Origin: a virus
Strand: one strand, 5' to 3'
DNA length: 43,470 nt
Virus record (IMG/VR): IMGVR_UViG_3300008266_000112
Location: 1 to 43,470 of that record
In this document: positions 1,240-42,739 of the stretch, in pieces
Position numbering within the stretch: the stretch's first letter is position 1
Layout of the letters: each line of letters opens with the position of its first letter
The notes under the pieces: model-generated
Told to the model about the DNA's origin: nothing
Database searches by the model: none
The model's input: the letters and a program-made list of their open reading frames with translations, nothing else
Translations under genes and position numbers: made by a program

Positions 1240-1590
1240 ATGTCAATCGACGTTTTCTTTAACCGCAGATACAACCGCAATTCGTACAATTGTGCGCATT
1301 TTGTTTGCGAAGTCTGGAAAGCTACGACAGGCGAAGACTTAGCCCACAAATTGCGCGGCTTCCTGCAAGCCCCGGAAGACAGACGGGCGGTACTATCAGA
1401 CCTTCGCAGCTTTAAGCGCCTGCAAACCCCGGAATCGCCTTGCGTTGCCCTTATGCAGCGCCGGGGAAGCGCCCCGCATGTGGGCATGTTCCTTCGCGGT
1501 CGCGTTTTACATATTCACGAAATGGGCGTAGAATTTCAACCGATAGACGTTGCTTCGCGCGGCTTCGAAAAGATAGGATTTTATAAATGA
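1240..1590 (+). CDS. NlpC/P60-like tail tip peptidase
   Basis: The 116-residue protein has the core signature of NlpC/P60 Cys-His hydrolases: a nucleophile-type Cys18 in the context YNCAHF at the start of a helix, and His80 in APHVGMF on the following beta strand, with a further His91. It lacks the N-terminal Mov34 part of lambda protein K and is short. Its position directly before the J-like gene matches the tail-assembly peptidase of siphophages, which may cut peptidoglycan during entry or act in tip assembly. The stop overlaps the next start (ATGA). The Shine-Dalgarno sequence is weak. Confidence 0.75.
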   Translation: MSIDVFFNRRYNRNSYNCAHFVCEVWKATTGEDLAHKLRGFLQAPEDRRAVLSDLRSFKRLQTPESPCVALMQRRGSAPHVGMFLRGRVLHIHEMGVEFQPIDVASRGFEKIGFYK

Positions 1591-4472
1591 AAATCGTAAC
1601 GCTTGCACTTAATCCGCTAGACCCGGAAACTTGGACTAATCACGAAGTCGCAGATATTCGCGAATTTTTAATGCAAGAATTCAGCGAATGGCCGCAAACT
1701 GCCCGCATTTACGAAAAGCAAGTTTCAAGTGCAACCGACGTAACGCCTTCTTCGGAAGCTGAAATAGAACGCTTGGGCGAACTTAAAGGCCCGTTTTACG
1801 TCGTTGTTTATCCAGCCGAACCAATTACGATTATTTATGCGCTTGTCGCAATTTTGGTCGTTGCTGTTGTCGTCATGGCGCAGAATCAACCGCCGTTGCC
1901 GACGCTTCGCAATACGCAAAGCCAATCGCCAAACAATGAACTTTCGGAACGTTCGAACAAGCCGCGCCCGAATGCCCGGATTCCCGACATTTTCGGAACG
2001 GTTCGTTCTACGCCCGACCTTATCGCCGTTCCTTACAAGATATTTGAAAATAACGAAGAAGTCGAATATTCCTATATGTGCATTGGGCGTGGTTATTACG
2101 ATATTCCGTCGCTTGAAGTTCGCGACGATACAACGCGCGTTTTAGATATTGCCGGAACTTCGGTCGAAGTTTATTCGCCTTTGACTTCGCCAAATTCAGG
2201 CCATGCACCGCAACTGCGAATCGGAAGCGCAATTAATACGCCAGTTCTTAACGTTGTTCGTTCGAATGCTGTTAATGGTCAAGTCTTGCGCGCGCCAAAC
2301 GACCAATTCTTGCGCGGAGATAACAACATTCGTTTTTCAACACCGAATGAAATTCAAACTTCGGCCTTTGATTTTACCGATAAATTCGCCGCAGGCGATG
2401 CAATGACAATTCAAGGCGCGGCGGAATACACAAGTTATCAAACGGAAACTAAAACCATTTCGGCATTTAGTGCGGGTTATTTTCGTTTTGTAATTCCGTC
2501 TTCTACGCTTCCGGCGCTTTATCAGGCTGGCAAAGAATGCGTTTTGACCGGCGCGACGTTTAACCAAACAGACGGCGACGGATTCATTACGACAACTTAC
2601 GACCTTTCCGGCATTTATCAAATTGCTTCCGTTGCGCTTGAATCCGAAGTAATTACGCCAGAATTCGGAGCACCTTACACGCAATATTATTGCCGCGTCA
2701 ATTTGGTTTCGCCTGCAAATGTAAATCCGAAATGGTCTTCAGCTTCCGGCCTTTCAACTAGCGCAGCAATTCGCATTCCAGACGGCGCGGAAATTTACAA
2801 TCTTTCCGGCGAATATACCGTTCTTTCTGTTTCCGATACTGTAATTACGTTGTCTAATCCTTCGGCTGTTAATCCGGCTTGGGGCGCAATTACAACGACG
2901 AATTACATAAGTCCGATTCTTTCCACTACTGGTTCTAAATGGATTGGGCCTTTCGTATTGGATAAAACCAATTTGTCGGAAGTCTTCGCAAACTTTGTTG
3001 CATTGAACGGGCTTTATAAAGACGACGGAAAAAACCAACTTCGATTCGATGTTGTTTGCGAAATTGAATTGACGCCAGTTAATGCAGACGGAAGCCCGCG
3101 CGGGGCCGCTGAAATGTTTCAAGCGACTATCGAAGGTTCCGCAACTTATCGCAGTTCGCGGGCTGTTACCTTAAAAGCGAATCCTACTTTCGAAGGTCGT
3201 TGCAAAGTTCGCGCGCGTCGCGTTACGCCTTCCGATTTGGCTTTCGAAGGTTCTGTAGTTGATGAAGTTAAATGGCGTGATGTTTATTCAGTTTCGCCTG
3301 TTTCAGAAACGCACTTCGGAAACGTTACGACAGTTCAAGCCGTAACTTATGCGACGGCTGGCGCGCTTGCTTTAAAAGAACGCAAATTAAACATGCTTGT
3401 TACGCGAAAGATTCCGGTTCGCATTAGCGGTTCCACATTTTCAACGGAACTTTACGCAACAAACAACGCCGCCGAAATTATTTCGTTCGCGTGCCTTGAT
3501 AAATACATAGGAAACCGACAAGTTGCCGAAATTGATTTCGATTCTATTTACAATTCAATTTCGGAAGTAAGCCAATATTTCGGAAGTGATTTTGCTACAG
3601 ATTTTTGCTATACGTTTGATTCTAGTAATCTTTCTTTCGAAGAAACAATTAAGTCTATTTCCGACGCTATCTTTTGCACGGCTTATAGACGCGGAAGCAT
3701 AATTAAACTTTCGTTCGAAAAAGAAACGCCGGATTCGACTTTGCTTTTCAATCATCGAAATAAGTTGCCGGGTTCCGAAACAAGAACAATTCGTTTCGGC
3801 AATCAAGACAACTTCGACGGCGTTTCGTTCCAATATATCGACCCGGAAGACGACGCGCAAATTACTTATTACATACCGGAAGACCGTTCGGCGGTTAATC
3901 CGAAAGAAGTTGAAAGTTTGGGCATTCGAAACAAATTACAAGCTTATTTCCACGCTTGGCGCACTTGGAATAAAATTCAATTTCAAAATGTGATTACTGA
4001 ATTTACCGCTACGCAAGAATCCGATTTGTTGGTAAATAACGACCGAATTTTGGTTGCCGACAATACGCGCCCTGATACGCAAGACGGCGAAATAATTTCG
4101 CAAAATGTTTTGCAGTTGTCGTTATCGCAAAGCGTCGATATGTCCAAATATCCAGAATATACGATGTTTGTTCAATTGAACGACGGAACGACGGAAGCAA
4201 TACCAGTAACCCAAGGTTCGACAGCAAAACAAGTTGTTTTGTCGCGTGCGCCGCGCCTTCCGCTGGCCCTAGATGACGACCTTTACGCCCGAACAACGTT
4301 TATACTTGTGGGCAACAACGAACCGCGTCAAAATGCGTTTTTGGTTTCTGAAAAAGAACCACAAAGCAATTTTACTTCCGTTGTTCGCGCCGTTAATTAC
4401 GACGCGCGTTATTACGGAAACGATAAAGATTTTATCAACGGGTTGATAAACGAAAACGGCGAACCTGTTTAA
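1587..4472 (+). CDS. J: Host-specificity protein J-like tail tip protein
   Basis: The 961-residue protein has the size, position and organisation of J-like central tip proteins. A hydrophobic segment lies near residues 72-97, followed by the region containing ARIPDIFGTVR, which resembles the conserved start of the J tip domain (RxPxxxGTVR). Long beta-rich stretches follow. It would form the tail tip that contacts the receptor and closes the tail channel. It follows the NlpC/P60 gene and precedes fibre genes. The hydrophobic segment fits a J-type protein that inserts during DNA ejection, but that role is inferred. Confidence 0.8.
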   Translation: MKIVTLALNPLDPETWTNHEVADIREFLMQEFSEWPQTARIYEKQVSSATDVTPSSEAEIERLGELKGPFYVVVYPAEPITIIYALVAILVVAVVVMAQNQPPLPTLRNTQSQSPNNELSERSNKPRPNARIPDIFGTVRSTPDLIAVPYKIFENNEEVEYSYMCIGRGYYDIPSLEVRDDTTRVLDIAGTSVEVYSPLTSPNSGHAPQLRIGSAINTPVLNVVRSNAVNGQVLRAPNDQFLRGDNNIRFSTPNEIQTSAFDFTDKFAAGDAMTIQGAAEYTSYQTETKTISAFSAGYFRFVIPSSTLPALYQAGKECVLTGATFNQTDGDGFITTTYDLSGIYQIASVALESEVITPEFGAPYTQYYCRVNLVSPANVNPKWSSASGLSTSAAIRIPDGAEIYNLSGEYTVLSVSDTVITLSNPSAVNPAWGAITTTNYISPILSTTGSKWIGPFVLDKTNLSEVFANFVALNGLYKDDGKNQLRFDVVCEIELTPVNADGSPRGAAEMFQATIEGSATYRSSRAVTLKANPTFEGRCKVRARRVTPSDLAFEGSVVDEVKWRDVYSVSPVSETHFGNVTTVQAVTYATAGALALKERKLNMLVTRKIPVRISGSTFSTELYATNNAAEIISFACLDKYIGNRQVAEIDFDSIYNSISEVSQYFGSDFATDFCYTFDSSNLSFEETIKSISDAIFCTAYRRGSIIKLSFEKETPDSTLLFNHRNKLPGSETRTIRFGNQDNFDGVSFQYIDPEDDAQITYYIPEDRSAVNPKEVESLGIRNKLQAYFHAWRTWNKIQFQNVITEFTATQESDLLVNNDRILVADNTRPDTQDGEIISQNVLQLSLSQSVDMSKYPEYTMFVQLNDGTTEAIPVTQGSTAKQVVLSRAPRLPLALDDDLYARTTFILVGNNEPRQNAFLVSEKEPQSNFTSVVRAVNYDARYYGNDKDFINGLINENGEPV

Positions 4473-4502
4473 TCGTTGCCCACAATTAAAGGAGTTTTGA
4501 AA

Positions 4503-7052
4503 ATGGCCCAACTGCCCGCCGAAGAAGCAATTGTACGTTTTAAAGAAAATGAAGACCGGCTTGATAAATTTGTCAATGATGACGCGGGTTATACGTCTTC
4601 AGGCGGTCAAGCCGTCGAAAGTATCCCGGCGTTTCTTGACCGAATGGCCGAAGATATTTCAGCAACCGGCGCAATTGCGACGACTGAAGCAAACAAAGCG
4701 GCAACGGCGGATTATCGCGCCGAAGCTTTGACTTATCGCAACCAAGCCGAAGCAATCAAAAACGAAACCTTTACGGTTTCCGGCATGTTTGCGACGACGG
4801 CGGCGGGTATTGCCGGAACAACTAGCGGAAAGGTTTTCGCGATTCCCGCAACCGATGCAAACGACGCTTTGGCGCTTTACAAGAACGAAGCCGGGGTTGC
4901 CGTCGATACTGGCAAGCGTCTTGTTGATACAACCGCCGTCGAAATGATCGCCGTTGAAGTCGCCGCAACGAATGGCGTTACGCCTTACGTCGGCGCTTTT
5001 GCCGACCAATGGGGCAACGTGTCGTTAGGTTTCCGCGAAGACGGAACCGCGCATATGCCGAAAGGCGCGGCTTCGCTTATGACAGTTGAAGAAAAACTTG
5101 CCGCGCCAAATACCGACGTTGAAGCAAGTTCGATTTTCGGATACGTCGAAGTAACGGTTGATAGTTTCGGCAATCTTGTTTTAGGTATTAAAGAAGACGG
5201 AACCGTGCATATTCCGAAAGCGCAAATCGACGATTTGAACGAAGCCGGTTCAACTTCGGGAAGCTGGAAAACAATCGACGCGGCAACTTCCGACAGTATC
5301 GTATTGATTGGCGACAGTTACACGGCAAGCCATTACACGATTACAGACAAAGCTTACATTTCCAATTTGTCGGCTTTCCTTAACTATCGCTTGCGCAACT
5401 TCGGTATCAGCGGTAACGACGCCCTTGATATGAATTATCGTATCGTCAATGACAGTACGTTTTTTGACGGTTCAAAATTTTCCACAATGAAAGCGAAATA
5501 CGCCCTTATCGTAACATATACGAACGACGGTCAATTTTGGTCGGCTGACCTTACGTATTATCAACGTAACGTCGAGCGTCTTATTGAAAGCGTTCGGGCG
5601 CATGGTGTTGAACCTATTCTTTGCAGCGAATTCCCGGTTAATGCGCCGGGTATGGGCGTTCTTCGCGCAATTGCCCGAAAGTTTAACGTACGGTTTATCG
5701 ACTGCAATTCGTTGAATTACGAAATTGGCGGGCTTGACGTTGGGCCGTTCCATCAAGGCCACCCCGGAACGCGAACCAATGGCGTTTTCTGGCTTCCGAT
5801 GTTGCAAGAACTTTTGCGTTTGCCCGAACCTGAAGGCGCGCTTAAAGTGTTCCGTCGTCGCCCGACGTTTACCGCCGCTTCGAATGCCGACTTGCTTTAT
5901 ACCGGCGTTGTTGAACGTTATCAAAAGTTCAAAGAACTAAGCCTTTCGCATTATCGCCTTGCCGATACGAATTTGCAGTATTTCGACGAATTGGACGGCC
6001 CTAACGTTTACAATTACGTTACAACTTCCGACGAATACAACCGCCTTACCGACGGAAGCGGCGTCGCTGTTACTGATTACGCGCTTGTCGAAGCAACGTT
6101 GCCCGGTACAGCCCGAACCCTTGACGAAGTGCGCTTGACAATGACGGCCACGGCTGGAACTGAAGTCTTCGTACGCGACTGGCTGGATTCGACCGCCAGC
6201 ATACCGGGAAGGGCGCAAGGCACGACGCCGACAACCCCGGAATACTTGGACAAGTGGAACAAGCCGCGCGGCGCTTGGCGGTCGTTAGGGGCGTATGCCG
6301 GGCCTGTCATCATTCCCGAAGCATCCTTGCCGCGTTCAATGGATGGCGACAAGATGCAAATTTTGCTTCACAAGTCTGGCGGCTTTACGTTGAATGCGAT
6401 TGCTGTTGAATATCGCGGCGAATCCGGCAAAGTTGGGAAGTACATTCCAGCGAAAGACGTTACTAACGAAACCGAACTTTTGCCGATTACAACGGTTGCC
6501 GCTGGCGATTTGGCAAGTTGGACGGTAAGCGGTACGCCGACGACGCTTGTTCCGATTGACGTTTACAACGCCCCGCGCAATCCGGCCAATTCGGCGCAAC
6601 CGATTTCGCAAGTTTGCGTTATCACTTCGGCAAACAAAATCGGGCAAACGGTAACTTTGCCGAACCCCGCAACTGTCGGCAAACGCTTTAAGTTGGTAGT
6701 GTGGGCAAGATATTTCGCGAAAGCTTTTCTTGATAATACCGCGTATAATCTTGACGCCGCCCAAGTTATCGACCGAAGCGCGCCGGGTATTACGTACGAA
6801 GCAAATTCGCCAATCAACAAGGATACCAACGACGTTCGCTTACTTCGTTTGCAATATGCCTTCGCTTCGTCGATTGCTGCAACTTCGGGCATTGAAGTTG
6901 ACGAATTCGCTTGGCTTGGCTGGCGACCTGTCGAATTCTTTATTGATGTTCCGCCCGCGCCTTTGGGAACTACGGCGTTCACTTTCGAACTGTCTTGCCC
7001 CGATGGCGAAATTCAAATTGCGAAAGTTCAACTTAAGGAGATTATGCAATGA
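4503..7052 (+). CDS. Tail fibre/spike with SGNH (GDSL) hydrolase-like domain
   Basis: The start at 4503 is chosen because AAAGGAG precedes it with proper spacing; upstream in-frame codons lack a site. The 849-residue product begins with a helical, Ala/Glu-rich stretch (about 1-90) like fibre attachment regions. It then has two similar short blocks ending in LGFREDGTAHMPK and LGIKEDGTVHIPK (about residues 175-245). A domain with the SGNH block I motif (IGDSYTAS, Ser near residue 272) follows, with a late His in GHPGTRTNG (near 419). The C-terminal 350 residues look beta-rich. SGNH domains in fibres usually deacetylate surface polysaccharide; this activity is inferred. The stop overlaps the next start. 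Confidence 0.75.
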   Translation: MAQLPAEEAIVRFKENEDRLDKFVNDDAGYTSSGGQAVESIPAFLDRMAEDISATGAIATTEANKAATADYRAEALTYRNQAEAIKNETFTVSGMFATTAAGIAGTTSGKVFAIPATDANDALALYKNEAGVAVDTGKRLVDTTAVEMIAVEVAATNGVTPYVGAFADQWGNVSLGFREDGTAHMPKGAASLMTVEEKLAAPNTDVEASSIFGYVEVTVDSFGNLVLGIKEDGTVHIPKAQIDDLNEAGSTSGSWKTIDAATSDSIVLIGDSYTASHYTITDKAYISNLSAFLNYRLRNFGISGNDALDMNYRIVNDSTFFDGSKFSTMKAKYALIVTYTNDGQFWSADLTYYQRNVERLIESVRAHGVEPILCSEFPVNAPGMGVLRAIARKFNVRFIDCNSLNYEIGGLDVGPFHQGHPGTRTNGVFWLPMLQELLRLPEPEGALKVFRRRPTFTAASNADLLYTGVVERYQKFKELSLSHYRLADTNLQYFDELDGPNVYNYVTTSDEYNRLTDGSGVAVTDYALVEATLPGTARTLDEVRLTMTATAGTEVFVRDWLDSTASIPGRAQGTTPTTPEYLDKWNKPRGAWRSLGAYAGPVIIPEASLPRSMDGDKMQILLHKSGGFTLNAIAVEYRGESGKVGKYIPAKDVTNETELLPITTVAAGDLASWTVSGTPTTLVPIDVYNAPRNPANSAQPISQVCVITSANKIGQTVTLPNPATVGKRFKLVVWARYFAKAFLDNTAYNLDAAQVIDRSAPGITYEANSPINKDTNDVRLLRLQYAFASSIAATSGIEVDEFAWLGWRPVEFFIDVPPAPLGTTAFTFELSCPDGEIQIAKVQLKEIMQ

Positions 7053-7915: not shown

Positions 7916-9988
7916 TTAGAAGAACTGAAGTTGCTTTGTCGTTGCTTTTTGGTAATACCCACAATCATAAAGCATTTCGACGGCTTCGTTTATGTACCAA
8001 TCGTAATTTACGTCGTCGGGAAATTCGGCGGGCAAATCCATAAGCGGGCGCGCCCCGTCGGTCTTGCCGACTTTGTTTCCGCTGATTACGTACGAAATAT
8101 GCCCGGCTTCGCCCTTCGGGTAATACCAACGAACGACCTTGCCCAAGTATTGCCCGTTCTTTTCGCCCCCGCCCTTGACGTTCTTTACTGCAACGAAGCG
8201 GCGAATATCGCGGCATTCCTTAACCGTCTTTTCGACCGATTGTTTGTTTTTGATAAACTGTAAAACCGCGTCAATGCAAATCAGCGTTTCGGGGTTCTTC
8301 GACAAAATCGAATTCAAAGCCGACCCGCGTTCAGAAAATGCGCCTTTGGTTTTACAGCCTAAACGTTCGTCAAGAAAACGCGCGTCGGCGTCGCCGCCGT
8401 CAACTTTAACGGCAATATACGTATTAACGTCGCGACTGTAAACCGCCGAATACCGCGTTTCTTCGGTCTTGAATGCTGTTCGCTGTTCCCATTCGGCAAT
8501 AATTGCCCGAACTTCAGCATGCCGCGATTTGTGATACTTCGAAACAATGCCGTCGGTATTTCCGCTGATTACGTCAATACCGGCGTCGTTCAGCATTTCA
8601 ATAAGCATCAAAAGAACAAGTTGCCCGGTAATGGTAACTTGAAGCATAAGTTGCGGCGCGTAAAGCGTTGAATATTTGTTGCCAAGTTTGCCGAAGCTTC
8701 CGTTAATCGTAATCTTCAAACTGTCGGCAATGGTCTTCCAACGCTTCGCCCCGGCTTTGTCGCCTGTCTTCTTAGCCTTGGCGGCTTCGTTCTTGGCATG
8801 AATGCGGGTTTCGACAATGGCGTTATAAACCTGCAAGAACGCTTCGCCAAGGTGCGACGGGAAAAGCCTTTGATTTAAGATAATGCGCGGATAGAACGAT
8901 TCTACGTCGTTATCCGCCAAAATAATTTCGTCGGTCGCTTTGTGCGCTGCTTTCTTTTCGGTCGAATGCAAACCGCCCATGCCTAGCTTATAGACGCTGG
9001 AACCGATTTTAACTTTTAGTTTGTCGATTTCATCCGGCATTATCGGCGACCCTAAGCCGTCAAGATAAAACCGGGCGTTCTTGATTACTTCGAACATATC
9101 GCGCAATTGCTGCGAACGATATGAAATGAAATCCGGGGCGTTGTATTGCAAGACCAAATCGGCGGCAAGTGTGGGCTTGCGCGGATAATAGCCTAGAACC
9201 TTTTGCAGTTCGCTATTAATCACGGCTTCAGCTACTTGGGCATCTGATTTGCTGCGAAGGTCTATGCCGTATTCTTCCGACATTTCCATTCGCAATTTAA
9301 TTTCGGGCGCAAGTTCGTTAAATAGAAGTTCCGTATTCGCTAAGTCGTTGCAGCAATACGGGCGAACTATGGCCGCATCTTCTGCCGTCAAAATGTGCGA
9401 TTCGGGAAACGGCAAATCTTGCATTTGGGCCGCGTGCAAACGACCGGCATAAAGCTTCAATGAAGCCGGGTTAGCGGAAACCCCGCCATTTACCGGGCAA
9501 ACGTTAAATATGTCAATATGGTTGTATTTGCCAATTTGAATTCGATATTTCTTTTCAATATCGAACGGCGTAACTTTTTTCGTTCCGTAATTCTGCCCGC
9601 TTTTAATAATGAAGTCGGAAGCTTCTTTAAGTTCGTTGCAGCTTAAACCCTTCGCCGCAAGTTCGACCATTGGAATATCGTAAGAATTCGAATTGAAGCC
9701 CACAAGGCAAAATCGCCAAAGCATCCAACGCAACTTCATTTCGGGAAAGTCGTAATCCGGCGACCGTTCGAACGCGACAAACTTTCCATTCGCCAGACAT
9801 TTAAACGCGACATAAAAGAAGTTTCGGTAACATTCAACGTCGAAGACGAAGACGCTTCCGGCTGGAACTGCCATTAGTTCTTCGTCTGTCATAAATTCGA
9901 CAGGCCGAAGCATAAGCCGAACCGCCGACGCTATCTTGTCGATTTTGCGGTTTGCTTTTGTTTTAATAAAGCCGTTTTCGTCTAGCAT
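7916..9988 (-). CDS. Family B DNA polymerase with 3'-5' exonuclease domain
   Basis: The 690-residue protein has an N-terminal proofreading domain: Exo I FDVEC (D50, E52), Exo II GFNSNSYDIP (D104), Exo III YCCND (Y211, D215). The polymerase domain has motif A DNDVESFYPRI (D361), motif B K-x3-N-G-S-F-G (K425-G433) and motif C SGNTDG (D479). In motif C the first Asp of the usual DTD is Asn, while the catalytic second Asp is kept. It is the last gene of the leftward replication operon, 15 nt after the clamp gene, with AAGGAAA before its ATG. It should be the main replicative polymerase. Confidence 0.9.
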   Translation of the reverse strand: MLDENGFIKTKANRKIDKIASAVRLMLRPVEFMTDEELMAVPAGSVFVFDVECYRNFFYVAFKCLANGKFVAFERSPDYDFPEMKLRWMLWRFCLVGFNSNSYDIPMVELAAKGLSCNELKEASDFIIKSGQNYGTKKVTPFDIEKKYRIQIGKYNHIDIFNVCPVNGGVSANPASLKLYAGRLHAAQMQDLPFPESHILTAEDAAIVRPYCCNDLANTELLFNELAPEIKLRMEMSEEYGIDLRSKSDAQVAEAVINSELQKVLGYYPRKPTLAADLVLQYNAPDFISYRSQQLRDMFEVIKNARFYLDGLGSPIMPDEIDKLKVKIGSSVYKLGMGGLHSTEKKAAHKATDEIILADNDVESFYPRIILNQRLFPSHLGEAFLQVYNAIVETRIHAKNEAAKAKKTGDKAGAKRWKTIADSLKITINGSFGKLGNKYSTLYAPQLMLQVTITGQLVLLMLIEMLNDAGIDVISGNTDGIVSKYHKSRHAEVRAIIAEWEQRTAFKTEETRYSAVYSRDVNTYIAVKVDGGDADARFLDERLGCKTKGAFSERGSALNSILSKNPETLICIDAVLQFIKNKQSVEKTVKECRDIRRFVAVKNVKGGGEKNGQYLGKVVRWYYPKGEAGHISYVISGNKVGKTDGARPLMDLPAEFPDDVNYDWYINEAVEMLYDCGYYQKATTKQLQFF

Positions 9989-10003: not shown

Positions 10004-11146
10004 TTAAAATGGAATGTCGTCTTCGTATTCGTTCGAAGCTTCGGCATTATGCGGCGTTGCGCTGTTTCTGTCAATACCTGAAAGAACACCCCGCACGTTT
10101 TCGCCGAAAAAATACGCCTTGTTCGAATCTTCGTCGAAATGAACGTTCTTAAAAGACGGTTCGACCATAAGAAGATATTTCGCATTAAAACCCATGCCTT
10201 CGGGCAAGCCTTCGATTTTATACGTCGAAGCTTCGGTTTCTTGTTCATTCGAAGCCAACATGCCGTCTTCAAAATAGACAATCCCGCTTCGACTGAACGA
10301 TTCAATCGAACGAACGGCCTTGTAAAATTCTTCGGGAACGGGCCAAGGGTTCAAGCTTTCGCAATTGAAAACGATTCCGTAATTCGGGTATTGTTCGCCG
10401 AAAAGTTGCGTCTTAATAAACGAATCATCTTCAAACCAGAACGTCGCAGACGCCCCGGAATAGCCAAACCCGGTAAGCGCCTTGCCTGCCTTGGCAATGG
10501 CGACCGCCGACGCCTTGGGAACCAGCATACCGGGCGGAAGGTCGATACCGTGCCAGTATTCGACCAGAACATGCCCATTCGTCGCGACGGCGCTTCCTGA
10601 CTGCAACAGCACGGCGGCAAGGTGCGCATGTTGCGCCCCGTCTGTCGCCAGCGGCAAGACCGCTTCGAAGGCGGCTTTAATTCGGTCGTCGATTACGGCG
10701 CAACGTTCATCGGGGCCGGTAATTTCGAAGTCGCCGAACGCAACGCACGGAACAAGCGCCTTAAACGCCCCGGAAACGACCGCAAGGGCCGTCGGCGATA
10801 GTTGGGTAATAGACAGGTCTTCGCCGACCTTGGAAAGCGCGTCGATTAGTTGGTAAGTATGTGGGCACGCGGTCAAGTCTTCTTCGACTTTCGTTGCGAC
10901 CGTAAGAACGCCGTTCGACGCTGCGGCCCAATTGCCGGAAATCATGCCGAACTGTTGTTGAACTGTTCCGGCCTTCTTTTGTGCGACGGCAACGAACTTC
11001 AACGCCGCAAGCAATGACGCCGCAGGGTTTGCGGTTGCTTTTGGCCGTCTGGCGCGATGTTTAGGCTTTGCCTTCGTTGCTTCCGGGGCTGCGGCTGGCG
11101 CTTCGCCTGTTGGAAGTGGAACGTTATTGTCAATTTGCGTTGTCAT
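10004..11146 (-). CDS. Probable DNA polymerase sliding clamp (beta-like) with SSB-like C-terminal tip
   Basis: The 380-residue product begins with a basic, Pro/Ala-rich tail (about 1-45), then a region from LLAALKFVAVAQKK resembling DnaN domain 1. The stretch LLQSGSAVATNGHVLVEYWH resembles the clamp repeat that begins a new domain, and VPKASAVAIAKAG follows. Length and position next to the polymerase fit a processivity clamp. The start is the ATG with AAGGGG in front; an upstream TTG is disfavoured. It overlaps the preceding gene by 17 nt. The last residues, EYEDDIPF, closely match the acidic C-terminal tip of bacterial SSB. The clamp assignment is by pattern and needs structure-level confirmation. 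Confidence 0.6.
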   Translation of the reverse strand: MTTQIDNNVPLPTGEAPAAAPEATKAKPKHRARRPKATANPAASLLAALKFVAVAQKKAGTVQQQFGMISGNWAAASNGVLTVATKVEEDLTACPHTYQLIDALSKVGEDLSITQLSPTALAVVSGAFKALVPCVAFGDFEITGPDERCAVIDDRIKAAFEAVLPLATDGAQHAHLAAVLLQSGSAVATNGHVLVEYWHGIDLPPGMLVPKASAVAIAKAGKALTGFGYSGASATFWFEDDSFIKTQLFGEQYPNYGIVFNCESLNPWPVPEEFYKAVRSIESFSRSGIVYFEDGMLASNEQETEASTYKIEGLPEGMGFNAKYLLMVEPSFKNVHFDEDSNKAYFFGENVRGVLSGIDRNSATPHNAEASNEYEDDIPF

Positions 11147-11366
11147 TGCTTGCCCCTTCGTTGTCAAGTTTGGAAATTGCGGCTTGAAGATAATTTGCCA
11201 TATCCAAGGCTTCTTCTAAGGCATGTTGCAGCCATGCGCGAAGCGTAAGCGGGTTATTATCGGTTGTTACGCCATACTTTGCAAGCCCGACGATAGAACG
11301 TTGCAACAACATTTCGCGGTTCTTTTCTACGTTGGAATCGGGCGATTTTTCGGGTTTGTCTGTCAT
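11130..11366 (-). CDS. Small MazG-like all-alpha NTP pyrophosphohydrolase-type protein
   Basis: The 78-residue protein contains the pattern R-S-I-V-G-L-A-K-Y-G (residues 23-32) and a helix with W-L-Q-H-A-L-E-E-A-L-D (45-55). This is a layout seen in many short phage proteins annotated as MazG-like, where the E-E-x-x-D helix would bind metal (E51, E52, D55). It carries only one such helix, so activity is uncertain. The start is the ATG four bases after the helicase stop; in-frame upstream starts lie inside the helicase gene. It overlaps the clamp gene by 17 nt. A nucleotide-pool role is inferred. Confidence 0.6.
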   Translation of the reverse strand: MTDKPEKSPDSNVEKNREMLLQRSIVGLAKYGVTTDNNPLTLRAWLQHALEEALDMANYLQAAISKLDNEGASNDNAN

Positions 11367-11370: not shown

Positions 11371-13026
11371 TCACCATTCAGCGGATAAGATTTCGGGATA
11401 TTTTTTGTTCGTCCAAACCCGAATGCGGGAAGGAACGCGCAATTCGGAAACGCGGCGTAAAGCTTCGTAAGTTGTAACGGGCGGGTCTTCGTAATGGCGT
11501 TGTCGCCACCAATCGCGGGCGCGCTTGCCTGCAATGCCGGGATGTTCTAGGCAAATCCATTCATTGAACATTTGAAAGCCGCAGAAATACGAAACCTTAA
11601 TCGAAGGTGGCGAAGTAAGAACGCCGTTTGCGTCGCGCTTTTCGTGCAAGTTGTAAATAATCTTTTGCACGTTGAAATAATCAACTATTGGCGCATCCGA
11701 CCGCAGAACGTCGCCGCCGAATGAATTTGCAAACAACTTCGTTTCGAAACTAAATTCGGTTCCGCAGTTTATGCAATGACGCGCCGACGCATGGTTATAA
11801 ACGCCGCAGTTTTCGCAGATACGAACCGGCGCGTCGCCGGGCGCACCTTTGCCGGGTTTGCGCGGTTTTACCGGGTCGTTTATCGGCCCCAAGCGTTTAA
11901 CGTTTCCGGCGAAATCAAGAAACAAGCAATTTTCTTTGTTCGTAGCTGGCGACGGTCTGGTTCCGCGCCCGCCCTTTTGAACGTGTTTGCCCGGCGACAT
12001 AGTAGGTTGAAAGTCGGCGATAAGGTCAATCGCCGGGAAATCATAACCCGTCGTATATTTATTCATGCCCACAAGTGCGCGATATTCGCCAGCTTCGAAA
12101 GCCGCCATACGAATATCGTTTTCTTTTTCGGTTAATTTCGAATGACTGGCAATGGCCGGAATACCAAACGAATTCAACATAGACGCGATATGTTCGGCAT
12201 TCTTGACGCCAGCGGCGAAGATAAGCCAATGGTTACGGTCGTAAGCAAGTTCGCAAGTTTCCTTCAAACCTTCGTAAATGACCTTTTCGGCTTCGTCTTC
12301 GGCTTGCTTGCCGTTGAAATCGCCGTTTGAAAGGTTAAGGTTCGACGTATCAATTTTCGTTGCAGTCGGGCGCGAAATCAACGGCGACAAATAGCCTTCG
12401 GCGATAAGCCGGTTAAAGGCTTCAATTCCTGTTATGTCGTAACAAACATCGGTAAAAATGCCGTCGTCTTCGGTAATCATGCCTTGTTTAAGACGGTAAG
12501 GCGTCGCCGTAAATCCGATAACCTTTAAGTTCGGATTAATCTTTTTCAGTTCGGCGATAATGTATTGATATTGCGTATCTTCCGAAGGGCTTAACAAATG
12601 CGCTTCGTCAATAATCAACAAATCGCGCCAGCCGAAATGCCGCAAATGCGGCGGCTTGTTGTCGCCAGCTTCAAGCGATTTTTTAATGGCAGGCGCGACG
12701 GATTGAACGCCGCCGAATACGATTGGCATAATCATTTCGCGGCTATTCAGGCCAGCGGAATAAATGCCCATTGGTGCGACAGGCCAAACCGACAAAAGCT
12801 TTTCGGCGTTTTGCGAAATCAACTTTTTAACGTGCGTAAGCATCATTATTCGTTGATTCGGCCAATATTCGAAAATCTTACGAATGAAGTTCGCAATAAC
12901 GACCGACTTTCCGGTTCCTGTCGGCATAGCGACGACAGGGTTTCCGACCCCGCCGCGCTGGAAATAATCGAATATTGCGTATTCCGCTTCGTCTTGATAC
13001 CAGCGGTTCGCGTAAATACTAGACAT
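11371..13026 (-). CDS. SF2 DEAD/DEAH-box helicase with C-terminal zinc finger
   Basis: The 551-residue protein has the SF2 motifs in order: Walker A MPTGTGKS (34-41), DEAH box in LLIIDEAHLL (140-143), motif III-like TATPYR (173-178) and motif VI Q-K-G-G-R-G-T-R (350-357). A C-terminal four-Cys site (C404, C407, C418, C421 in CENCGVYNHASARHCINC) suggests a zinc ribbon. This type resembles phage RecQ/RadD/UvsW-like replication helicases. It lies between the nuclease gene (8-nt overlap) and the small MazG-like gene, so it probably acts in replication or recombination-dependent replication. Confidence 0.85.
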   Translation of the reverse strand: MSSIYANRWYQDEAEYAIFDYFQRGGVGNPVVAMPTGTGKSVVIANFIRKIFEYWPNQRIMMLTHVKKLISQNAEKLLSVWPVAPMGIYSAGLNSREMIMPIVFGGVQSVAPAIKKSLEAGDNKPPHLRHFGWRDLLIIDEAHLLSPSEDTQYQYIIAELKKINPNLKVIGFTATPYRLKQGMITEDDGIFTDVCYDITGIEAFNRLIAEGYLSPLISRPTATKIDTSNLNLSNGDFNGKQAEDEAEKVIYEGLKETCELAYDRNHWLIFAAGVKNAEHIASMLNSFGIPAIASHSKLTEKENDIRMAAFEAGEYRALVGMNKYTTGYDFPAIDLIADFQPTMSPGKHVQKGGRGTRPSPATNKENCLFLDFAGNVKRLGPINDPVKPRKPGKGAPGDAPVRICENCGVYNHASARHCINCGTEFSFETKLFANSFGGDVLRSDAPIVDYFNVQKIIYNLHEKRDANGVLTSPPSIKVSYFCGFQMFNEWICLEHPGIAGKRARDWWRQRHYEDPPVTTYEALRRVSELRVPSRIRVWTNKKYPEILSAEW

Positions 13027-13990
13027 TTTGCGTTATTGCCTTATATGAAGGGCAGGCCGTCGGGATAAATTCTTTCGGAATGTTCCCGTTATGAACTTCG
13101 CAAAACCATTCGGCATTTTCAACAGGCCGGGCAAATGCGCAGCTTCGGCAATTGACTTCGACGACCGCGCCTTTATGGCAAACGTCTTTCAAATGGCAAT
13201 ATCCGCATTTGTGAAACGTTGGATTATCCGAAAGACGCGCGGGCGGCGTTTGCGACAAAATGATTTGTTCGGCTTTCATAATCATTTGTTCGCCCAAGCC
13301 GTGATTAAGCTTCACGACTTCAACATGCAACGAATCGTCGTTTTTGTTGATATTCAGATAAACGCAATATCGGAAATTGTATTTCTTGCCATACGTCGAA
13401 GTTTGCGCGAAATGTTCCGGCTTTGCGATTGGCATTCCATCGTCTGCCAGCTTGTTAAAACCCGCGCCGGTTCCGTTGGTCTTGAATTCCAACAAAACGG
13501 GTTCTTCGATACCGTAGCGTTCGGGCAAAACTGCGATGCCGTCAAGCGACCCGCCGAAGTGCCCCATAACGTCGGAAATCCTGTATTGTGGGTATTCGCC
13601 TTTTTCGTTTGGCGCTTCGTCGCGATTTTCGAACCAGACTTTAAAACCGATTCCTTCCAGCCATTCAACGAAACGCGCTTCTTCACGATGCCCACGATTA
13701 AACAACCGTTGTTGCCGCCCGGTCGTCTTTTCATGCAAACACCAGCGGAAGACGTACCAAAGATAACGCTTGCATTCGCGACCGATAAGGCTTGCGCCAA
13801 GGTGCGAACGGTGCCCGCCGTCGTAAGTGCGAACGCAATATTCGTCGATTTCTTCAAGAATGCGCTTTGCAAGGGCTTTCGATACGCCGGGCGAATCCAA
13901 ATTAACGCCTTGCTTTCCGTCGCTTAATTTCTTCGGCGCTTCGGCGCTGTTCGTTTTGTTCGCGTTCGTATTGCTTTCTTTGCTTGGCAT
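13019..13990 (-). CDS. PD-(D/E)XK exonuclease, Cas4/RecB-like
   Basis: The 323-residue protein has the nuclease core GGSLDGIAV (D150) followed by LLEFKTN (E168, K170). Cys73 lies in GRECKRYLWY, and a C-terminal C-G-Y-C-H-L-K-D-V-C cluster matches the C...CxxC-x5-C layout of the iron-sulfur domain in Cas4 and AddB-type nucleases. A further Cys-rich tail (NCRSCAF, C-x-x-H, C-P-S-Y) is present. It probably resects DNA ends for recombination together with the Sak4-like protein. The start has AAGGAAAAACAAG in front. It overlaps the upstream DUF3268 gene by 89 nt and the helicase gene by 8 nt. Confidence 0.8.
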   Translation of the reverse strand: MPSKESNTNANKTNSAEAPKKLSDGKQGVNLDSPGVSKALAKRILEEIDEYCVRTYDGGHRSHLGASLIGRECKRYLWYVFRWCLHEKTTGRQQRLFNRGHREEARFVEWLEGIGFKVWFENRDEAPNEKGEYPQYRISDVMGHFGGSLDGIAVLPERYGIEEPVLLEFKTNGTGAGFNKLADDGMPIAKPEHFAQTSTYGKKYNFRYCVYLNINKNDDSLHVEVVKLNHGLGEQMIMKAEQIILSQTPPARLSDNPTFHKCGYCHLKDVCHKGAVVEVNCRSCAFARPVENAEWFCEVHNGNIPKEFIPTACPSYKAITQNV

Positions 13991-16020: not shown

Positions 16021-16324
16021 TTTTACGCTTCCTTTTGATTCGCGCCCTTAATTGTGGGCTAACGGGTTTCGGGTATGGTTCATCGTCGATTGTACCGAAT
16101 TCGTTTAATCCCCAAATGGGAACCTTTGGGCCGCGCCCAAGTTTCGGCATCTTCCAATCTTCAATATAAACCGTTTTTCTTTCGTGAAGAATTTTCATAT
16201 AAGGCCGAACATTTCGAACATGAATGCCCAACAGTTCGGCCAATTTGTAAGAAGTAAGCCCGCCCTTATCTTTCAAAAAACGTTCGATAAGGGTTAGGGC
16301 CGATTGTTCTTCCCGCTTGCGCAT
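15965..16324 (-). CDS. Winged-helix DNA-binding protein
   Basis: The 119-residue protein has a helix-turn-helix region at about residues 10-47 (LIERFLKDKG, TSYKLAELLGI, HVRNVRPYMKILH), followed by a wing-like strand and GRGPKVPIWGLNEFG. This resembles small phage winged-helix regulators. The C-terminal 35 residues are basic. The start overlaps the stop of the preceding gene by one base (TAATG), so translation is coupled. Its 3' end runs 56 nt into the Sak4-like gene. It could regulate early transcription or assist replication; the sequence does not decide. Confidence 0.6.
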   Translation of the reverse strand: MRKREEQSALTLIERFLKDKGGLTSYKLAELLGIHVRNVRPYMKILHERKTVYIEDWKMPKLGRGPKVPIWGLNEFGTIDDEPYPKPVSPQLRARIKRKRKNANVTIKASVGTGATLRG

Positions 16325-17648: not shown

Positions 17649-17864
17649 ATGGCCGAACCGACCAAGCTTCGCGACGAAACCCGCGAACTACTGAAAAACC
17701 GCCCGGCGACGCTGGAAATCAAGACGATAGCCGCCGACCTTGGCGTTTCTGTCGGTTGGTTAAACCAGTTTGCGCGGGGTAAAATAGAAAATCCGGGCGT
17801 CGTTACTATTTGCGCGCTTAATAACTATCTGTCGAACTTCAATAAGAAAAAGGCGGCGAAGTAA
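17649..17864 (+). CDS. Cro/C1-type helix-turn-helix regulator
   Basis: The 71-residue protein contains a helix-turn-helix at about residues 20-45 (LEIKTIAADLGVSVGWLNQFARGK), with the A-x-x-L-G-V-S-x-x-W pattern of Cro/C1-type domains, and a Lys-rich C-terminus. The ATG at 17649 has AGAAGG at good spacing; a start nine bases upstream lacks one. It is the first rightward gene after the divergent promoter and couples to the primase gene through TAATG. It probably controls the divergent promoters, as a Cro-like switch would. No partner repressor gene is seen. Confidence 0.7.
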   Translation: MAEPTKLRDETRELLKNRPATLEIKTIAADLGVSVGWLNQFARGKIENPGVVTICALNNYLSNFNKKKAAK

Positions 17865-20689: not shown

Positions 20690-20752
20690 CTTCGCCAGCG
20701 GCCCCGGAATGGGGCTTGCTTGCCCACATTGAACCGCGAAGGACTTAGACAA

Positions 20753-31093: not shown

Positions 31094-32176
31094 ATGGCCT
31101 TAGCCGACAATAAACGTTTGTACGATATAGCGACGCGGCAACAAGTCTATATTGAAGGCGTTAAAGTTCAATACGCGCGCGAATTTAATTTCGCATTGGC
31201 CGAACTTCGCTTAGAACTTAACCGCCTTTTAAGCCGCGTTAAATACAAGACTTTGGACGGCTTGACGAAGGCCGAACTTAATAAGCTTGTCGTTACGCTT
31301 CGCGCTTCGCAATCGAAGATTTACAACGCATACACGCAACAGATTATCAAACAGCTTAAAGGTTTTATGGCCGCTGATTTGGAAATCAACCGTCGCGCTT
31401 ATGTGCATAGCAAATTAGAAGAAGACGCGCCGATTCCTTCCGACGAAGAAGCCGTTAAGTATTTGCAGGAAGAAAACAACCAAACGAACGTCTTTCCATT
31501 GTTCGGCCTTGCGGCGATTACCGGCAACAATGACCGGCTTTGGTCGGCGGTAACGAATGCGCCAATTCCGGCAAATGGCTTGTATCTGTTGCCATTCGTG
31601 AAGACCTTTACAACGTCGGCGCAAGCTGGCGTCGAAAACACGATTCGCAAAGCATGGGCGAACGGTTGGACAATTGAAGAAACATTGCGCGAACTTACCG
31701 GCGAAGACAACAAACAAGGCACTTCGTCGCAGCTTCAACGAATCGGCGTGCAAGCGAACGCGGTAATCGCAACCGCTGTTCAACATACCGCCTCAGTCGT
31801 TGGGGCTGGCGTAATATCGGCCCTGTTCGGCTGGTATATGTGGCATTCGGTAATGGACGGCAAGACGACCGAAATTTGCATAAGTCGAAACCGCAAACGC
31901 TATCGGTTCGGGCAAGGCCCAATCCCGCCCGCGCATATTCGGTGCCGGTCGCATATCGCGCCTATTGTGGGCATGGATGACATAGCCGCCGAAACGTTCT
32001 ATACTTGGGCGGTTCGCCAGCCTGCCGACGTTCAAGACGACATATTGGGCGAAAGTCAAGCCGACGAAATGCGCAGCGGAAAACTAAAAGAAAAAGATTT
32101 GCCGAAGTTTGAAGCGCGGCAACCTTTGACCCTTGAAGAATTCCGCCGCAAGATTAAAGAAATTTTATCCCGCTGA
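31094..32176 (+). CDS. Head morphogenesis protein (SPP1 gp7 / Mu F-like)
   Basis: The 360-residue protein ends in the signature of Mu F-like head morphogenesis proteins: HSVMDGKTTEICISRNRKRYRFG followed by P-P-A-H-I-R-C-R-S. It follows the portal gene by two bases. Such minor head proteins sit inside or near the portal and assist assembly or ejection. The N-terminal two-thirds is helical. The last 40 residues are charged. Confidence 0.85.
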   Translation: MALADNKRLYDIATRQQVYIEGVKVQYAREFNFALAELRLELNRLLSRVKYKTLDGLTKAELNKLVVTLRASQSKIYNAYTQQIIKQLKGFMAADLEINRRAYVHSKLEEDAPIPSDEEAVKYLQEENNQTNVFPLFGLAAITGNNDRLWSAVTNAPIPANGLYLLPFVKTFTTSAQAGVENTIRKAWANGWTIEETLRELTGEDNKQGTSSQLQRIGVQANAVIATAVQHTASVVGAGVISALFGWYMWHSVMDGKTTEICISRNRKRYRFGQGPIPPAHIRCRSHIAPIVGMDDIAAETFYTWAVRQPADVQDDILGESQADEMRSGKLKEKDLPKFEARQPLTLEEFRRKIKEILSR

Positions 32177-34369: not shown

Positions 34370-34406
34370 TTGCGGCTAGTGTGGGCAACGGATACAAGGC
34401 GCGAAC

Positions 34407-35020: not shown

Positions 35021-35542
35021 ATGCCGATAACAATTACAGTTGAAAACGGTTCAAACGTAGCCAACGCAAATTCGTTCGTTACTATTGCCGAAGCCCGAAC
35101 CTATGCAGCCGAACGCGGCGTAACGTTGTCGGCTACGGATGACGACGTAGCGATTCAGCTTATCAAATCCAAAGATTATTTGGAATCGTTCGCAATGCGC
35201 TATCAAGGCGAAATCGCGAACGAAGGCCAGTCGTTGCAATGGCCGCGAATTGACGTTTATTTGTACGGAAGCGAAACCGCTTTTCCGTCGAACGCAATTC
35301 CGAAAGAACTTAAAGCGGCGCAGAATGCGACCGTCGTTGCGCTTGCGCAAGGCGTCGATATTATGCCGAACTATTCCGCAAGCGATTTCGTAACGCGCGA
35401 AAAAGTCGGGCCGATTGAAACCGAATACGCCGACCCGACGAAGGTTGGCATTGTGCCCACATTAACCGGCGTCGATTCGCTGTTGGCCCCGTTGTTTGGT
35501 TCTACTGCAACCGGCTTCGCACTTCGAACAATGCGGGTCTGA
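35021..35542 (+). CDS. Head-tail connector, DnaT-like fold family
   Basis: The 173-residue protein matches the phage family labelled DnaT-like (PITITVENGSNVANANSFVTIAEARTYAAERG, then LESFAMRYQGEI and LQWPRIDVYLYG). Such proteins are encoded between capsid and tail-terminator genes and are taken as adaptors that dock on the portal. It starts 2 nt after the previous stop; upstream in-frame starts lie inside that gene. Confidence 0.7.
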   Translation: MPITITVENGSNVANANSFVTIAEARTYAAERGVTLSATDDDVAIQLIKSKDYLESFAMRYQGEIANEGQSLQWPRIDVYLYGSETAFPSNAIPKELKAAQNATVVALAQGVDIMPNYSASDFVTREKVGPIETEYADPTKVGIVPTLTGVDSLLAPLFGSTATGFALRTMRV

Positions 35543-39208: not shown

Positions 39209-42200
39209 ATGGCAGACGAAAATATTAGCATTGAAATTGCCGACAAGGTTTCGCCTTCCATTTCGAACAAGCTTGTAAAGATTGCCGAAAATGCCCGCGC
39301 AGCCGACGCCGCAGTTAAGAACCTGCAAACGCAACTTGCGTCGTTGAATTCTAGCGCGCTTTCAAACATTCAAGCCGCAACGCAAGGCGCAACGCAAGCC
39401 CTTCAACAAAACGCACTTGCCGCGCAACGGCTGGCAACCGAACAAGCCCGAACCGCAAGCGCAGCCGCCCAAGCCGCCGCAGCGCAGACGCGCGCCAGCA
39501 CGGCCCAAACCCAAGGCGCGACCGCTGCGCAGAACCTAGCAAGCGCCACGACCCGTAGCACGACCGCCCAAACGCAAGGCCAGACGGCGGCGCAGCGCCT
39601 AGCGACCGAACAGCAACGCACCGCCGCGCAAACGGCCAATGCCGCAGCCGCAGCCGACCGGGCCGCGCTTGCTGCGCTTCGGCTTCAACAGGCCCAAGAC
39701 CGGGCGGCGCAGGCCAGCAAGAACGCCGGAACGTCGATTATGTCGTTCGTTCGCGGCGCGGCTGCATTGGTCGGCGTAGGTCTGTCGGCAACTGCAATTC
39801 TTGGCGCAGCCGACGCATATACGGTTCTTCAAAACAAGTTGCAAAACGTTTCGGAAACCGCAGCGCAAACCGACGCAATTACGAATCGTTTGTTCGAAAC
39901 AGCGAACCGCACGCGAACGCCGGTACAGGAAACCGCCCAAGCTTTTACCCGCTTTGATATGGCGTTGAAAAACCTTGGCAAGTCGCAAGACGATTCGTTG
40001 CGTCTTACCGAAACCGTTAATAAAATGCTTGTCGTTTCTGGCGCAACTGCCAATGAAGCGGGTTCGGCATTGCTGCAACTTTCGCAGGCATTCAATAAAG
40101 GCAAGTTGGACGGCGACGAATTCCGTTCGGTTATGGAACTTATGCCGAATGCAGCCGACGCAATCGCGAAACGTCTTGGCGTAACGCGCGGCGAACTGTT
40201 GAAGCTTGCGCCCGAAGGCAAGATTACGGCGAAAGTGATGTTCGACGCATTTACGGCGGCTGCGGCTGGCATAGATGCGAAATTCGGAAAGACGGTGCCC
40301 ACATTGTCGCAGGCGATGACCGTTCTTCGCAACAATGCGACGCAAACGTTCGGCGAAATGAATAAATCGCTTGGCATTACTGCCGGGCTTTCGAAGGCGC
40401 TTATTTTCCTTGCCGAAAATATGAAGACTGTTGCTTTCGTCGTTGCAGTCTTGGGCGCTGCGCTGTTGGTCGCATTCGGCCCGGCTTTGATTGGTGCAAT
40501 TTCCGCCGCAGCTTCCGCCGTTTGGGCCTTCACTGTCGCGATTGCGGCTAACCCTATCGGCTTGCTTGTTGTGGGCATAACCGCAGCCGTTGCGGCAATC
40601 GCAATTTTTGGCGACCAAATCGCCGTAACTTCCGACGGTCTGGTTTCGTTGAAAGACGTTGCTTTGGCTGTATGGTCGTTTATTTCCGACGGTGCGGGCG
40701 CTGTTGCCGGTTTGATTAAGGAATATTGGAACATTGCAATCGACTTCGTTAATTCGAAAACCGACGGCATGGGCGAAAAGTTCCGCGATATTGGTTCCGC
40801 AATTGTCCAATTTGCAAAGACTGTTGTTAATACTTATATCGGTCTTTGGGTCGGCGTTTATAACGCGGTCGTTAATGGCTGGCAGTTATTCCCCGCAGCA
40901 ATGCGCGATATTTTCGCAATGACGCTTAATTCAGTCGTCGGCATTACCGAAAAAATCGTAAATGCTGCGCTTGAAGGTATTAACAAAATTACCGAACTTG
41001 CGAACCAAGGCGCGGAAAAACTAGGTATCGGAAAAATCTTCGAAGGCGGTTTGTCTGTTTCGTTGGACAAATACAAAATGGACGTAACCGGCGCGGCTTC
41101 GGATTTGGCCGGAACCGTGAAAGGCGCATTTTCTAGCGCATTCGGAACGGATTTCGTCGGAAGCGCCGTCGGCGCTATCGAAGCCCGCGCGCGTCAAATC
41201 AGCGGCGCACGACGCGCGACCGAAGGCGCAGGTTCCGCCTTGCGCGGCGCTGGCACTGCCCCGGTTGCTTCGCCAGACGCCAAAGCCTTAAAGGCTGCGC
41301 AGAAACGCGCCGACGAAATGGCAAAGGTTAATCGCAACCTTGACGAAGAATTGACCGCGCTTCAACGCTTAGGCCCGGCTTACGTCGTTTCTAATCGTTT
41401 GCTTGAAATTGAAAATAATTTGCTTGATAAGAAAATCAAGCTTACGGATTCAGAACGTGAAAGCATTAAGGCGAAGCTTCAAGCAATCCAAGACCAAAAA
41501 GCGGCGAACGCACTTAGCGAAATCAATAAAGAACTAGACCAACAATCGGCGATTTTGGGCAAGCTTGGGCCGCAACAAGAAATCGCCCAACAAATGCAGC
41601 AATATCAAAACGATTTGTATTCGCGCGGAATCATCCTTAACCAACAGGAAACCGCCGCATTGCAAAAGCGCCTTGAAGTATTGCAGCAAGAAAAGGCAGT
41701 TTCGCAAGAACTGAATAAGATTTATTCCGAAACCGAAGGCAAGAAACTTTCGCTTCAACAGCAAACGACCGCGCTTAATCAAGCATACGCGCAAGGCTTA
41801 ATCAACCTTGACGCATATTCGAACCGACTTGTTAAAATTGGTTTGGATATGACGAACCTTAAACTTCAAGCGCAGGAAGGAACGTTTAACGACGTTATGA
41901 TTTCCGGCCTTGGTTCGATTGTGTCGCAATATGAAGGCGTAATGTCCGGCCTGTCGGATGCTTTCGGCGGATTCTTTACAAGCTTTACCGACGGCTTCGC
42001 GAATAGCGTAGGCCGTGCCATTGTTTATTCGGAAAACTTAAACGACGCCCTTTCGAATGTTGCAAAAGAAGCCGTCGCCGGTTTGATTTCCGCACTTGTT
42101 AAACTTGGTATTCAATACGTCGTAAATGCCGCGCTTGGTCAAGCTATCGGGGCTTCGTCTTTGGCTGCGCAAACGGCGGCGTCTGCGGCGGCTGCAACGG

Positions 42201-42739
42201 CCACGGCTGCGGCTTGGGCAACGCCTGCCGCCTTGGTATCCCTTGCCAGCTTTGGCGCTAACAGCGTGCCCGCGATGGCCGGGATTACGGCAACGGCTGC
42301 GCTTACCGAAGGTCTTGCACTGGCAAGCGTTGCAGGCTTCGAACAGGGCGGCTATACCGGCAATGTGGGCACGAAAGAAATTGCCGGGGTTGTTCATGGT
42401 CGCGAATATGTATTCGACGCCGCTTCGACTGATAGAATCGGGGTCGGCAATCTTGAAGCAATCCGCAACGGCGCGTCGTATGTTTCTTCGAATACTTCTA
42501 TGGCTGGTTCTAGTTCTTCCGGCGCTGCAATTGCCGTAAATATTGAAAATTACGGCACTTCGAAAGACTTTGAAGTTCAACAAATCAGCGAAAGCGAAGT
42601 TCGAATTATTGCACGTGATGAAGCCCGCGCGGTTGTTCAAAAAGAAGCGCCCGGCGTAGTTGCTTCGCAAATCAGAAACCCGAATTCCAGCGTATCCAAG
42701 TCTTTGGGCCAAAATACGCAAACGCAAAGAAGGCGGTAA
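39209..42739 (+). CDS. Tape measure protein
   Basis: The 1176-residue protein has an Ala/Gln/Thr-rich helical N-terminus (about 35-170). The tape measure N-terminal domain follows (ADAYTVLQNKLQNVSETAAQ..., LLQLSQAFNKGKLDGDEFRSVMELMPNAADAIAKRLGV, about 200-330). Hydrophobic segments lie at about 405-470, a long coiled-coil region at about 700-890, and a Gly/Ala/Thr-rich C-terminal part with another hydrophobic patch. At 3 residues per 4.5 angstroms it would set a tail of about 170 nm. It may also form the ejection channel. It starts 3 nt after the previous stop. Confidence 0.92.
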   Translation: MADENISIEIADKVSPSISNKLVKIAENARAADAAVKNLQTQLASLNSSALSNIQAATQGATQALQQNALAAQRLATEQARTASAAAQAAAAQTRASTAQTQGATAAQNLASATTRSTTAQTQGQTAAQRLATEQQRTAAQTANAAAAADRAALAALRLQQAQDRAAQASKNAGTSIMSFVRGAAALVGVGLSATAILGAADAYTVLQNKLQNVSETAAQTDAITNRLFETANRTRTPVQETAQAFTRFDMALKNLGKSQDDSLRLTETVNKMLVVSGATANEAGSALLQLSQAFNKGKLDGDEFRSVMELMPNAADAIAKRLGVTRGELLKLAPEGKITAKVMFDAFTAAAAGIDAKFGKTVPTLSQAMTVLRNNATQTFGEMNKSLGITAGLSKALIFLAENMKTVAFVVAVLGAALLVAFGPALIGAISAAASAVWAFTVAIAANPIGLLVVGITAAVAAIAIFGDQIAVTSDGLVSLKDVALAVWSFISDGAGAVAGLIKEYWNIAIDFVNSKTDGMGEKFRDIGSAIVQFAKTVVNTYIGLWVGVYNAVVNGWQLFPAAMRDIFAMTLNSVVGITEKIVNAALEGINKITELANQGAEKLGIGKIFEGGLSVSLDKYKMDVTGAASDLAGTVKGAFSSAFGTDFVGSAVGAIEARARQISGARRATEGAGSALRGAGTAPVASPDAKALKAAQKRADEMAKVNRNLDEELTALQRLGPAYVVSNRLLEIENNLLDKKIKLTDSERESIKAKLQAIQDQKAANALSEINKELDQQSAILGKLGPQQEIAQQMQQYQNDLYSRGIILNQQETAALQKRLEVLQQEKAVSQELNKIYSETEGKKLSLQQQTTALNQAYAQGLINLDAYSNRLVKIGLDMTNLKLQAQEGTFNDVMISGLGSIVSQYEGVMSGLSDAFGGFFTSFTDGFANSVGRAIVYSENLNDALSNVAKEAVAGLISALVKLGIQYVVNAALGQAIGASSLAAQTAASAAAATATAAAWATPAALVSLASFGANSVPAMAGITATAALTEGLALASVAGFEQGGYTGNVGTKEIAGVVHGREYVFDAASTDRIGVGNLEAIRNGASYVSSNTSMAGSSSSGAAIAVNIENYGTSKDFEVQQISESEVRIIARDEARAVVQKEAPGVVASQIRNPNSSVSKSLGQNTQTQRRR

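Follow-up and report, generated by a model that had tools for sequence, protein, structure and literature searches.

A strand-wise evenly spaced TGTGGGC word in a Septimatrevirus-related phage and its relatives, and the probable role of its copies as priming sites of a phage primase-polymerase

The window analysed here is a stretch of 43,470 bases that makes up the whole of a virus record and derives from a phage related to Septimatrevirus. In its right third the match to Pseudomonas phage LPPA15 is 85 %; for phage 73 and related phages the figure is approximately 76 %. The replication module is divided between the strands, with genes for DNA polymerase, clamp, RadD-like SF2 helicase, Cas4-domain exonuclease, SSB and Sak4 on the minus strand and a gene for a 772-residue primase-helicase on the plus strand. 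A small ORF (17650-17865) lies directly upstream of the primase gene, at a place that is occupied in several relatives by an annotated HTH DNA-binding protein. The genes that bear on the dispersed word TGTGGGC, the subject of this analysis, are as follows.

7916..9988, minus strand, DNA polymerase (PHROG 1252 DNA polymerase, E-value 6e-212; Pfam DNA_pol_B weak, below cut-off)
10004..11167, minus strand, DNA polymerase processivity factor, or clamp (PHROG 947)
11371..13026, minus strand, RadD-like SF2 helicase (Pfam ResIII and Helicase_C, PHROG 16), candidate reader of the word under a Chi-like alternative
13019..13990, minus strand, Cas4-domain exonuclease (PHROG 1990), candidate partner under the same alternative
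17864..20182, plus strand, primase-helicase, 772 aa (PHROG 3022 DNA primase), proposed reader of the word

The primase-helicase is laid out as an NrS-1-like primase-polymerase domain (residues ~1-180), a helix-bundle domain (~185-270) and a C-terminal DUF3987/helicase-like part. Its N-terminus matches the NrS-1 primase-polymerase (PDB 6a9w, E-value 1.1e-27) and resembles that of plasmid pRN1; the protein also matches PDB entry 7ola (E-value 4.7e-38), and Pfam recognizes both NrS1-1_pol-like_HBD (E-value 1.9e-8), which is the helix-bundle domain that follows the catalytic domain, and DUF3987. The catalytic domain is of the PrimPol-type AEP class with the acidic, histidine and third motifs, and residues D82, D84, H117 and E134 are invariant in 46 relatives. 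The six best PDB folds for an AlphaFold model of the protein (pLDDT 88.9) are all NrS-1 N300, and the pRN1 primase comes next; the full-length match of the model to NrS-1 N300 is modest (TM ~0.5), and domain orientation may account for such modest scores.

The word TGTGGGC occurs 24 times in the window, 15 times on the plus strand and nine on the minus strand, at all of the coordinates listed in an earlier note that was made from the sequence alone. Every copy conforms to DTGTGGGCW, and the flanking bases are also as claimed there, with A (8), G (5) or T (11) but never C before the word and A (18) or T (6) after it. The copies, all located by word search and all candidate priming sites, are these.

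1342..1348, minus strand, TGTGGGC word
1479..1485, plus strand, TGTGGGC word
4307..4313, plus strand, TGTGGGC word
4478..4484, minus strand, TGTGGGC word
6700..6706, plus strand, TGTGGGC word
9170..9176, plus strand, TGTGGGC word
9698..9704, minus strand, TGTGGGC word
10860..10866, plus strand, TGTGGGC word
12067..12073, minus strand, TGTGGGC word
16053..16059, plus strand, TGTGGGC word
17053..17059, minus strand, TGTGGGC word
18946..18952, plus strand, TGTGGGC word, within the primase gene
20722..20728, minus strand, TGTGGGC word
21936..21942, plus strand, TGTGGGC word
24334..24340, plus strand, TGTGGGC word
27099..27105, plus strand, TGTGGGC word
28978..28984, plus strand, TGTGGGC word
29434..29440, minus strand, TGTGGGC word
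31966..31972, plus strand, TGTGGGC word
34380..34386, plus strand, TGTGGGC word
35455..35461, minus strand, TGTGGGC word
40297..40303, minus strand, TGTGGGC word
40570..40576, plus strand, TGTGGGC word
42364..42370, plus strand, TGTGGGC word

The number of copies due to chance had been put at about five, which is too high. Dinucleotide shuffles (n=100) gave a mean of 2.85 (sd 1.6, largest 8) and never reached 24, and the expectation under an order-2 Markov model is 1.26; against this proper background TGTGGGC is the top over-represented 7-mer of the window. Most sites fall within genes, and shuffling of synonymous codons in 28 confident genes yielded 2.1-2.2 copies (maximum 8), compared with 17 in the real sequence. 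The word is also sharp, since most of its single-mismatch neighbours occur about as often as expected; TGTCGGC exceeds its expectation the most (25 versus 13.7).

Close relatives have 20-30 copies of TGTGGGC regardless of host or GC content, and their host genera are Pseudomonas, Burkholderia, Variovorax, Rhodobacter, Brenneria and Sphingomonas. There are 21-30 copies in LPPA15, 73, PaMx42, KL1 (Burkholderia), PSV3, KP1, BAPIC_0004 (Variovorax) and RcTitan (Rhodobacter), a density of about 1 per 1.4-2.1 kb, and the word ranks first or second among the 7-mers of each of these eight phages; BREN6, Pavpe01 and Lucius have 20-23. Enrichment against a background model and conservation of the motif in related phages had both been proposed as checks, and both outcomes favour function, with aligned copies kept far above background 7-mers: 17 of 17 in LPPA15 (versus 42 % of all 7-mers), 8 of 12 in phage 73 (23 %) and 11 of 15 in KL1 (20 %).

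Less closely related phages that share this replication module contain variants in the same frame, namely TGTGGTTA, TGTGGTCA, TGTGGYCA and TTGTGGGT. There are 37 and 38 copies of TGTGGTTA in slur01 and Iggy (expected 2.2 and 1.4), and 35 and 43 of TGTGGTCA in Siara and VspDsh_1 (expected ~2.5), while GH32, Vibrio 1.207.B and Baskent_P4_1 have TGTGGTCA together with TGTGGCCA; the word is TGTGGGCR in phiAxp-1, YGTGGGCA in VCLv21 and TTGTGGGT in Rosemountvirus emiel. The family among the relatives can be written TGTGGNN, with a GTG(G) core that is invariant in all enriched words of the array-bearing lineages, and GTGG lies within the top 8-mer in 74 of 95 genomes or metagenome loci that encode the primase domain, compared with 3.9 % of all 8-mers. 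A host factor is excluded by this distribution, since three phages of P. aeruginosa have three words (TGTGGGCW in LPPA15, TGTGGTTA in Iggy and TGTGGYCA in Baskent_P4_1) while one word is common to phages of alpha-, beta- and gammaproteobacteria. The suggestion that the word binds a phage or host protein is upheld for the phage and not for the host. The diverged words of the module in other lineages would correspond to changed primase specificity; no relatives of the VspDsh_1 primase were found in viral contigs.

The NrS-1/pRN1-type primase domain is present in every complete motif-bearing genome. Solent encodes it, with no clamp, Cas4, SSB or Sak4 detected, and still has an enriched GTGG word, CCCGTGG, whose copies do not lie at even intervals; in RHEph05 the word is CTGTGG and its spacing is even. 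Solent is also enriched in ATTCTTGAC (11 versus 0.4). Neither domain nor word was found in XapPhi1 and pIS4-A, no such array was found in Staphylococcus phage DSP2 and Listeria phage LP-101, which have the domain, and CRP-901 has an annotated primase/polymerase, whose N-domain is not detectably of the NrS-1/pRN1 type, and no GTGG word. The module genes are co-inherited, comparative genomics alone cannot separate the primase from its neighbours, and trees fail to single it out, with 5 word-class changes for the primase and 4-6 for RadD, Cas4, Sak4 and SSB. What makes the primase the likely reader is the enzymology of its homologues, a primer-like footprint and the partial decoupling of the word from the other module genes.

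GTGGGC is preceded by T in 88 % of 312 sites, which is consistent with initiation just 5′ of the core. Among 625 non-redundant sites the frequency of template A drops from 0.22 at position −9 to 0.11-0.12 at positions −8 to −5, position −2 favours A and position −1 disfavours C. This footprint is confined to the 8 bases 5′ of the word (−8 to −1), with a sharp edge between −9 and −8, and nothing comparable was found on the 3′ side of the same sites. Its profile is identical for sites that are sense or antisense to a gene, it holds over 34 % to 58 % GC, and it is absent from most control words; the control CGTGGGC shows it too and is perhaps an alternative site. Lineages with TGTGGTTA and TGTGGTCA show the footprint only weakly. 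Its 8 bases are consistent with an 8 nt primer and, with the T included, come to nine, one above the unit primer of pRN1.

The average spacing of about 1.8 kb given in the earlier note is correct, but the sites are regular within each strand, beyond a mere average. The coefficient of variation of within-strand spacing in the window is 0.41 (plus) and 0.36 (minus), compared with ~0.9 for control words of equal count, and evenness over 22 phages, which are related and so not independent, gives z = −10.3 and −8.3 for the two strands. Pooled strands are less even than each strand alone in most phages, as is expected if each strand is primed separately. The word is a selected, phage-encoded site system, conserved in relatives and evenly spaced within each strand.

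The further claim that there is no strong strand bias was not borne out, the ratio being 15:9 in the window, and 207 plus to 118 minus sites in 13 genomes oriented by the primase gene. If the plus-strand sites serve lagging synthesis, forks would mostly move in the direction in which the primase gene is read. The segment from 12074 to 16052, over RadD, Cas4 and SSB, is free of the word on both strands, and relatives (13 oriented genomes) are also site-poor on both strands in the segment that matches ~12-16 kb of the window. This zone might hold an origin or other special region; a strand switch marking an origin had no clear point in the 13 genomes, which show the overall bias and the site-poor zone only.

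NrS-1 PrimPol reads the template 5′-TTTGGTTA-3′ and, more efficiently, 5′-GTGG-3′, and initiates on the base immediately 5′ of the recognized sequence (PMC8718748); its recognition sequence is also given as 5′-GTGG/GTGA-3′ (PMC8718748, PMC7102993). The primase and its helix-bundle domain are homologous to those found here, the GTGG core is common to both, the slur01 and Iggy word TGTGGTTA is one base off TTTGGTTA, and a start on the adjacent 5′ base is predicted here likewise. However, the 8 nt site of NrS-1 occurs only twice in its own genome, at the centre (PMC7102993), compared with 20-40 evenly spaced on both strands here, and NrS-1 PrimPol doubles as the replicative polymerase, whereas the present phages have a separate polymerase and clamp. 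The pRN1 (ORF904) primase requires GTG in the template and makes 8 nt primers, although pRN1 is an archaeal plasmid, the motif is of 3 bases and a genome-wide selected array is not described (PMC8076596). It too has a helix-bundle domain, a T lies just 5′ of GTG in its standard substrates, and its 8 nt unit primer resembles the 8-9 base footprint seen here. T7 gp4 and bacterial DnaG likewise use short single-strand initiation sites, which are trinucleotide-based, 3-5 bases long and abundant by chance; the primase fold is unrelated, and these sites are not a selected, evenly spaced 8-mer as here.

We propose, with a probability of roughly 0.84, that the phage primase-polymerase (17864-20182) recognizes its template and initiates at these sites, a role that appears likelier than those listed in the earlier note (Chi-like, nucleoid, segregation, packaging or protective). 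The helix-bundle domain would bind GTGG-GCW on an exposed single strand, and the enzyme would begin opposite the T that immediately precedes GTG and copy ~8-9 template bases in the 5′ direction; for the primase of the phage 73 group the own-word template would be TGTGGGCA. The phage polymerase (7916-9988) would then extend the primer together with the clamp. Regular sites on each strand would set the start points of Okazaki fragments, and would be denser on whichever strand more often serves as lagging template.

A phage-encoded Chi-like system, in which the RadD-like helicase and the Cas4-domain exonuclease (and Sak4/SSB) read the word on one strand and switch from degradation to recombination, would suit a word that is asymmetric, sharp and dispersed; the RadD, Cas4, Sak4 and SSB genes belong to the replication module and are found together with the word, and in the trees they cannot be told apart from the primase. 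We nevertheless consider it improbable, as phiAxp-1 has an array without a detectable Cas4 homologue, Solent keeps an enriched GTGG word without Cas4, SSB, Sak4 and clamp, and RadD homologues are present in XapPhi1 and pIS4-A without the word. Neither the primer-length 5′ footprint nor the even spacing per strand is predicted by a Chi site, and GTGG is already a known site of primase homologues. A stoperator-like set of sites for a phage repressor, nucleoid or segregation protein, for example the small HTH protein upstream of the primase, whose gene is conserved beside it in several relatives, would also account for some two dozen dispersed, asymmetric copies, and seems less probable still. 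Mycobacteriophage L5 is temperate, and its stoperators are two to three dozen asymmetric sites across the genome that are longer, more variable and repressor-bound, whereas the present word has little degeneracy; no integrase or repressor is annotated in 73, PaMx42 or KL1, most sites are intragenic, and such a protein gives no reason for a one-sided 8-base footprint. A degenerate operator was rejected, single-base neighbours of the word being mostly at expectation.

Nick or packaging sites of a phage nuclease or terminase, comparable to the localized nicks of T5 DNA, could similarly be short, sharp, dispersed and asymmetric words on both strands. This explanation is weaker again, as GTGG words persist with unrelated structural modules and different terminases (Siara and emiel) and the known site of primase homologues is a better fit. 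Chi sites of RecBCD and AddAB are short, asymmetric and over-represented across the genome, as is the word, but they are host-specific, and the word tracks phage lineage and not host. There is a negligible probability that the host drives it, as a Chi, restriction or methylation signal, or that it arose from codon use or by chance: a host Chi or restriction word is refuted by the single word across three proteobacterial classes and the three words in P. aeruginosa phages, and chance and composition by the shuffles, with 2 versus 17 copies after codon shuffling and 0 of 100 dinucleotide shuffles reaching 24.

It is rather likely that a large group of phages hard-wires its Okazaki starts, with a separate, evenly spaced array on each strand that selection keeps in fixed positions and at a given density; the word would co-evolve with the primase, and primase specificity and the main lagging strand would be readable from sequence alone. 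Primer positions are known for few phages, and if the words are priming sites, dozens of genomes already contain a complete map of start points. With GC, TC, TT or GT following TGTGG, they would also form a natural experiment in the evolution of primase sequence preference and yield a rule, open to test, on how far apart priming events lie; an annotated but unstudied primase-helicase family would gain predicted templates, and a word that otherwise resembles an unknown regulatory or protective site would be explained. No published description of such arrays was found in the open-access literature, to which the search was confined, and the word itself gave chance matches only, one of them a sequencing primer in the Silvanus paper.

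Several other words are enriched in these genomes. GCTGGCG is over-represented in the whole window (31 versus 8.8), as is GCTGGCGC (7 versus 2.6 expected), which we take to be the P. aeruginosa Chi word; for both, LPPA15 is similar and RcTitan is not, and they are possibly host Chi sites. GAAATCA is enriched in the window (26 versus 5.4) and likewise in LPPA15, KL1 and RcTitan, and CCGCAGC/GCTGCGG is strongly over-represented in RcTitan (60 versus 8.3).
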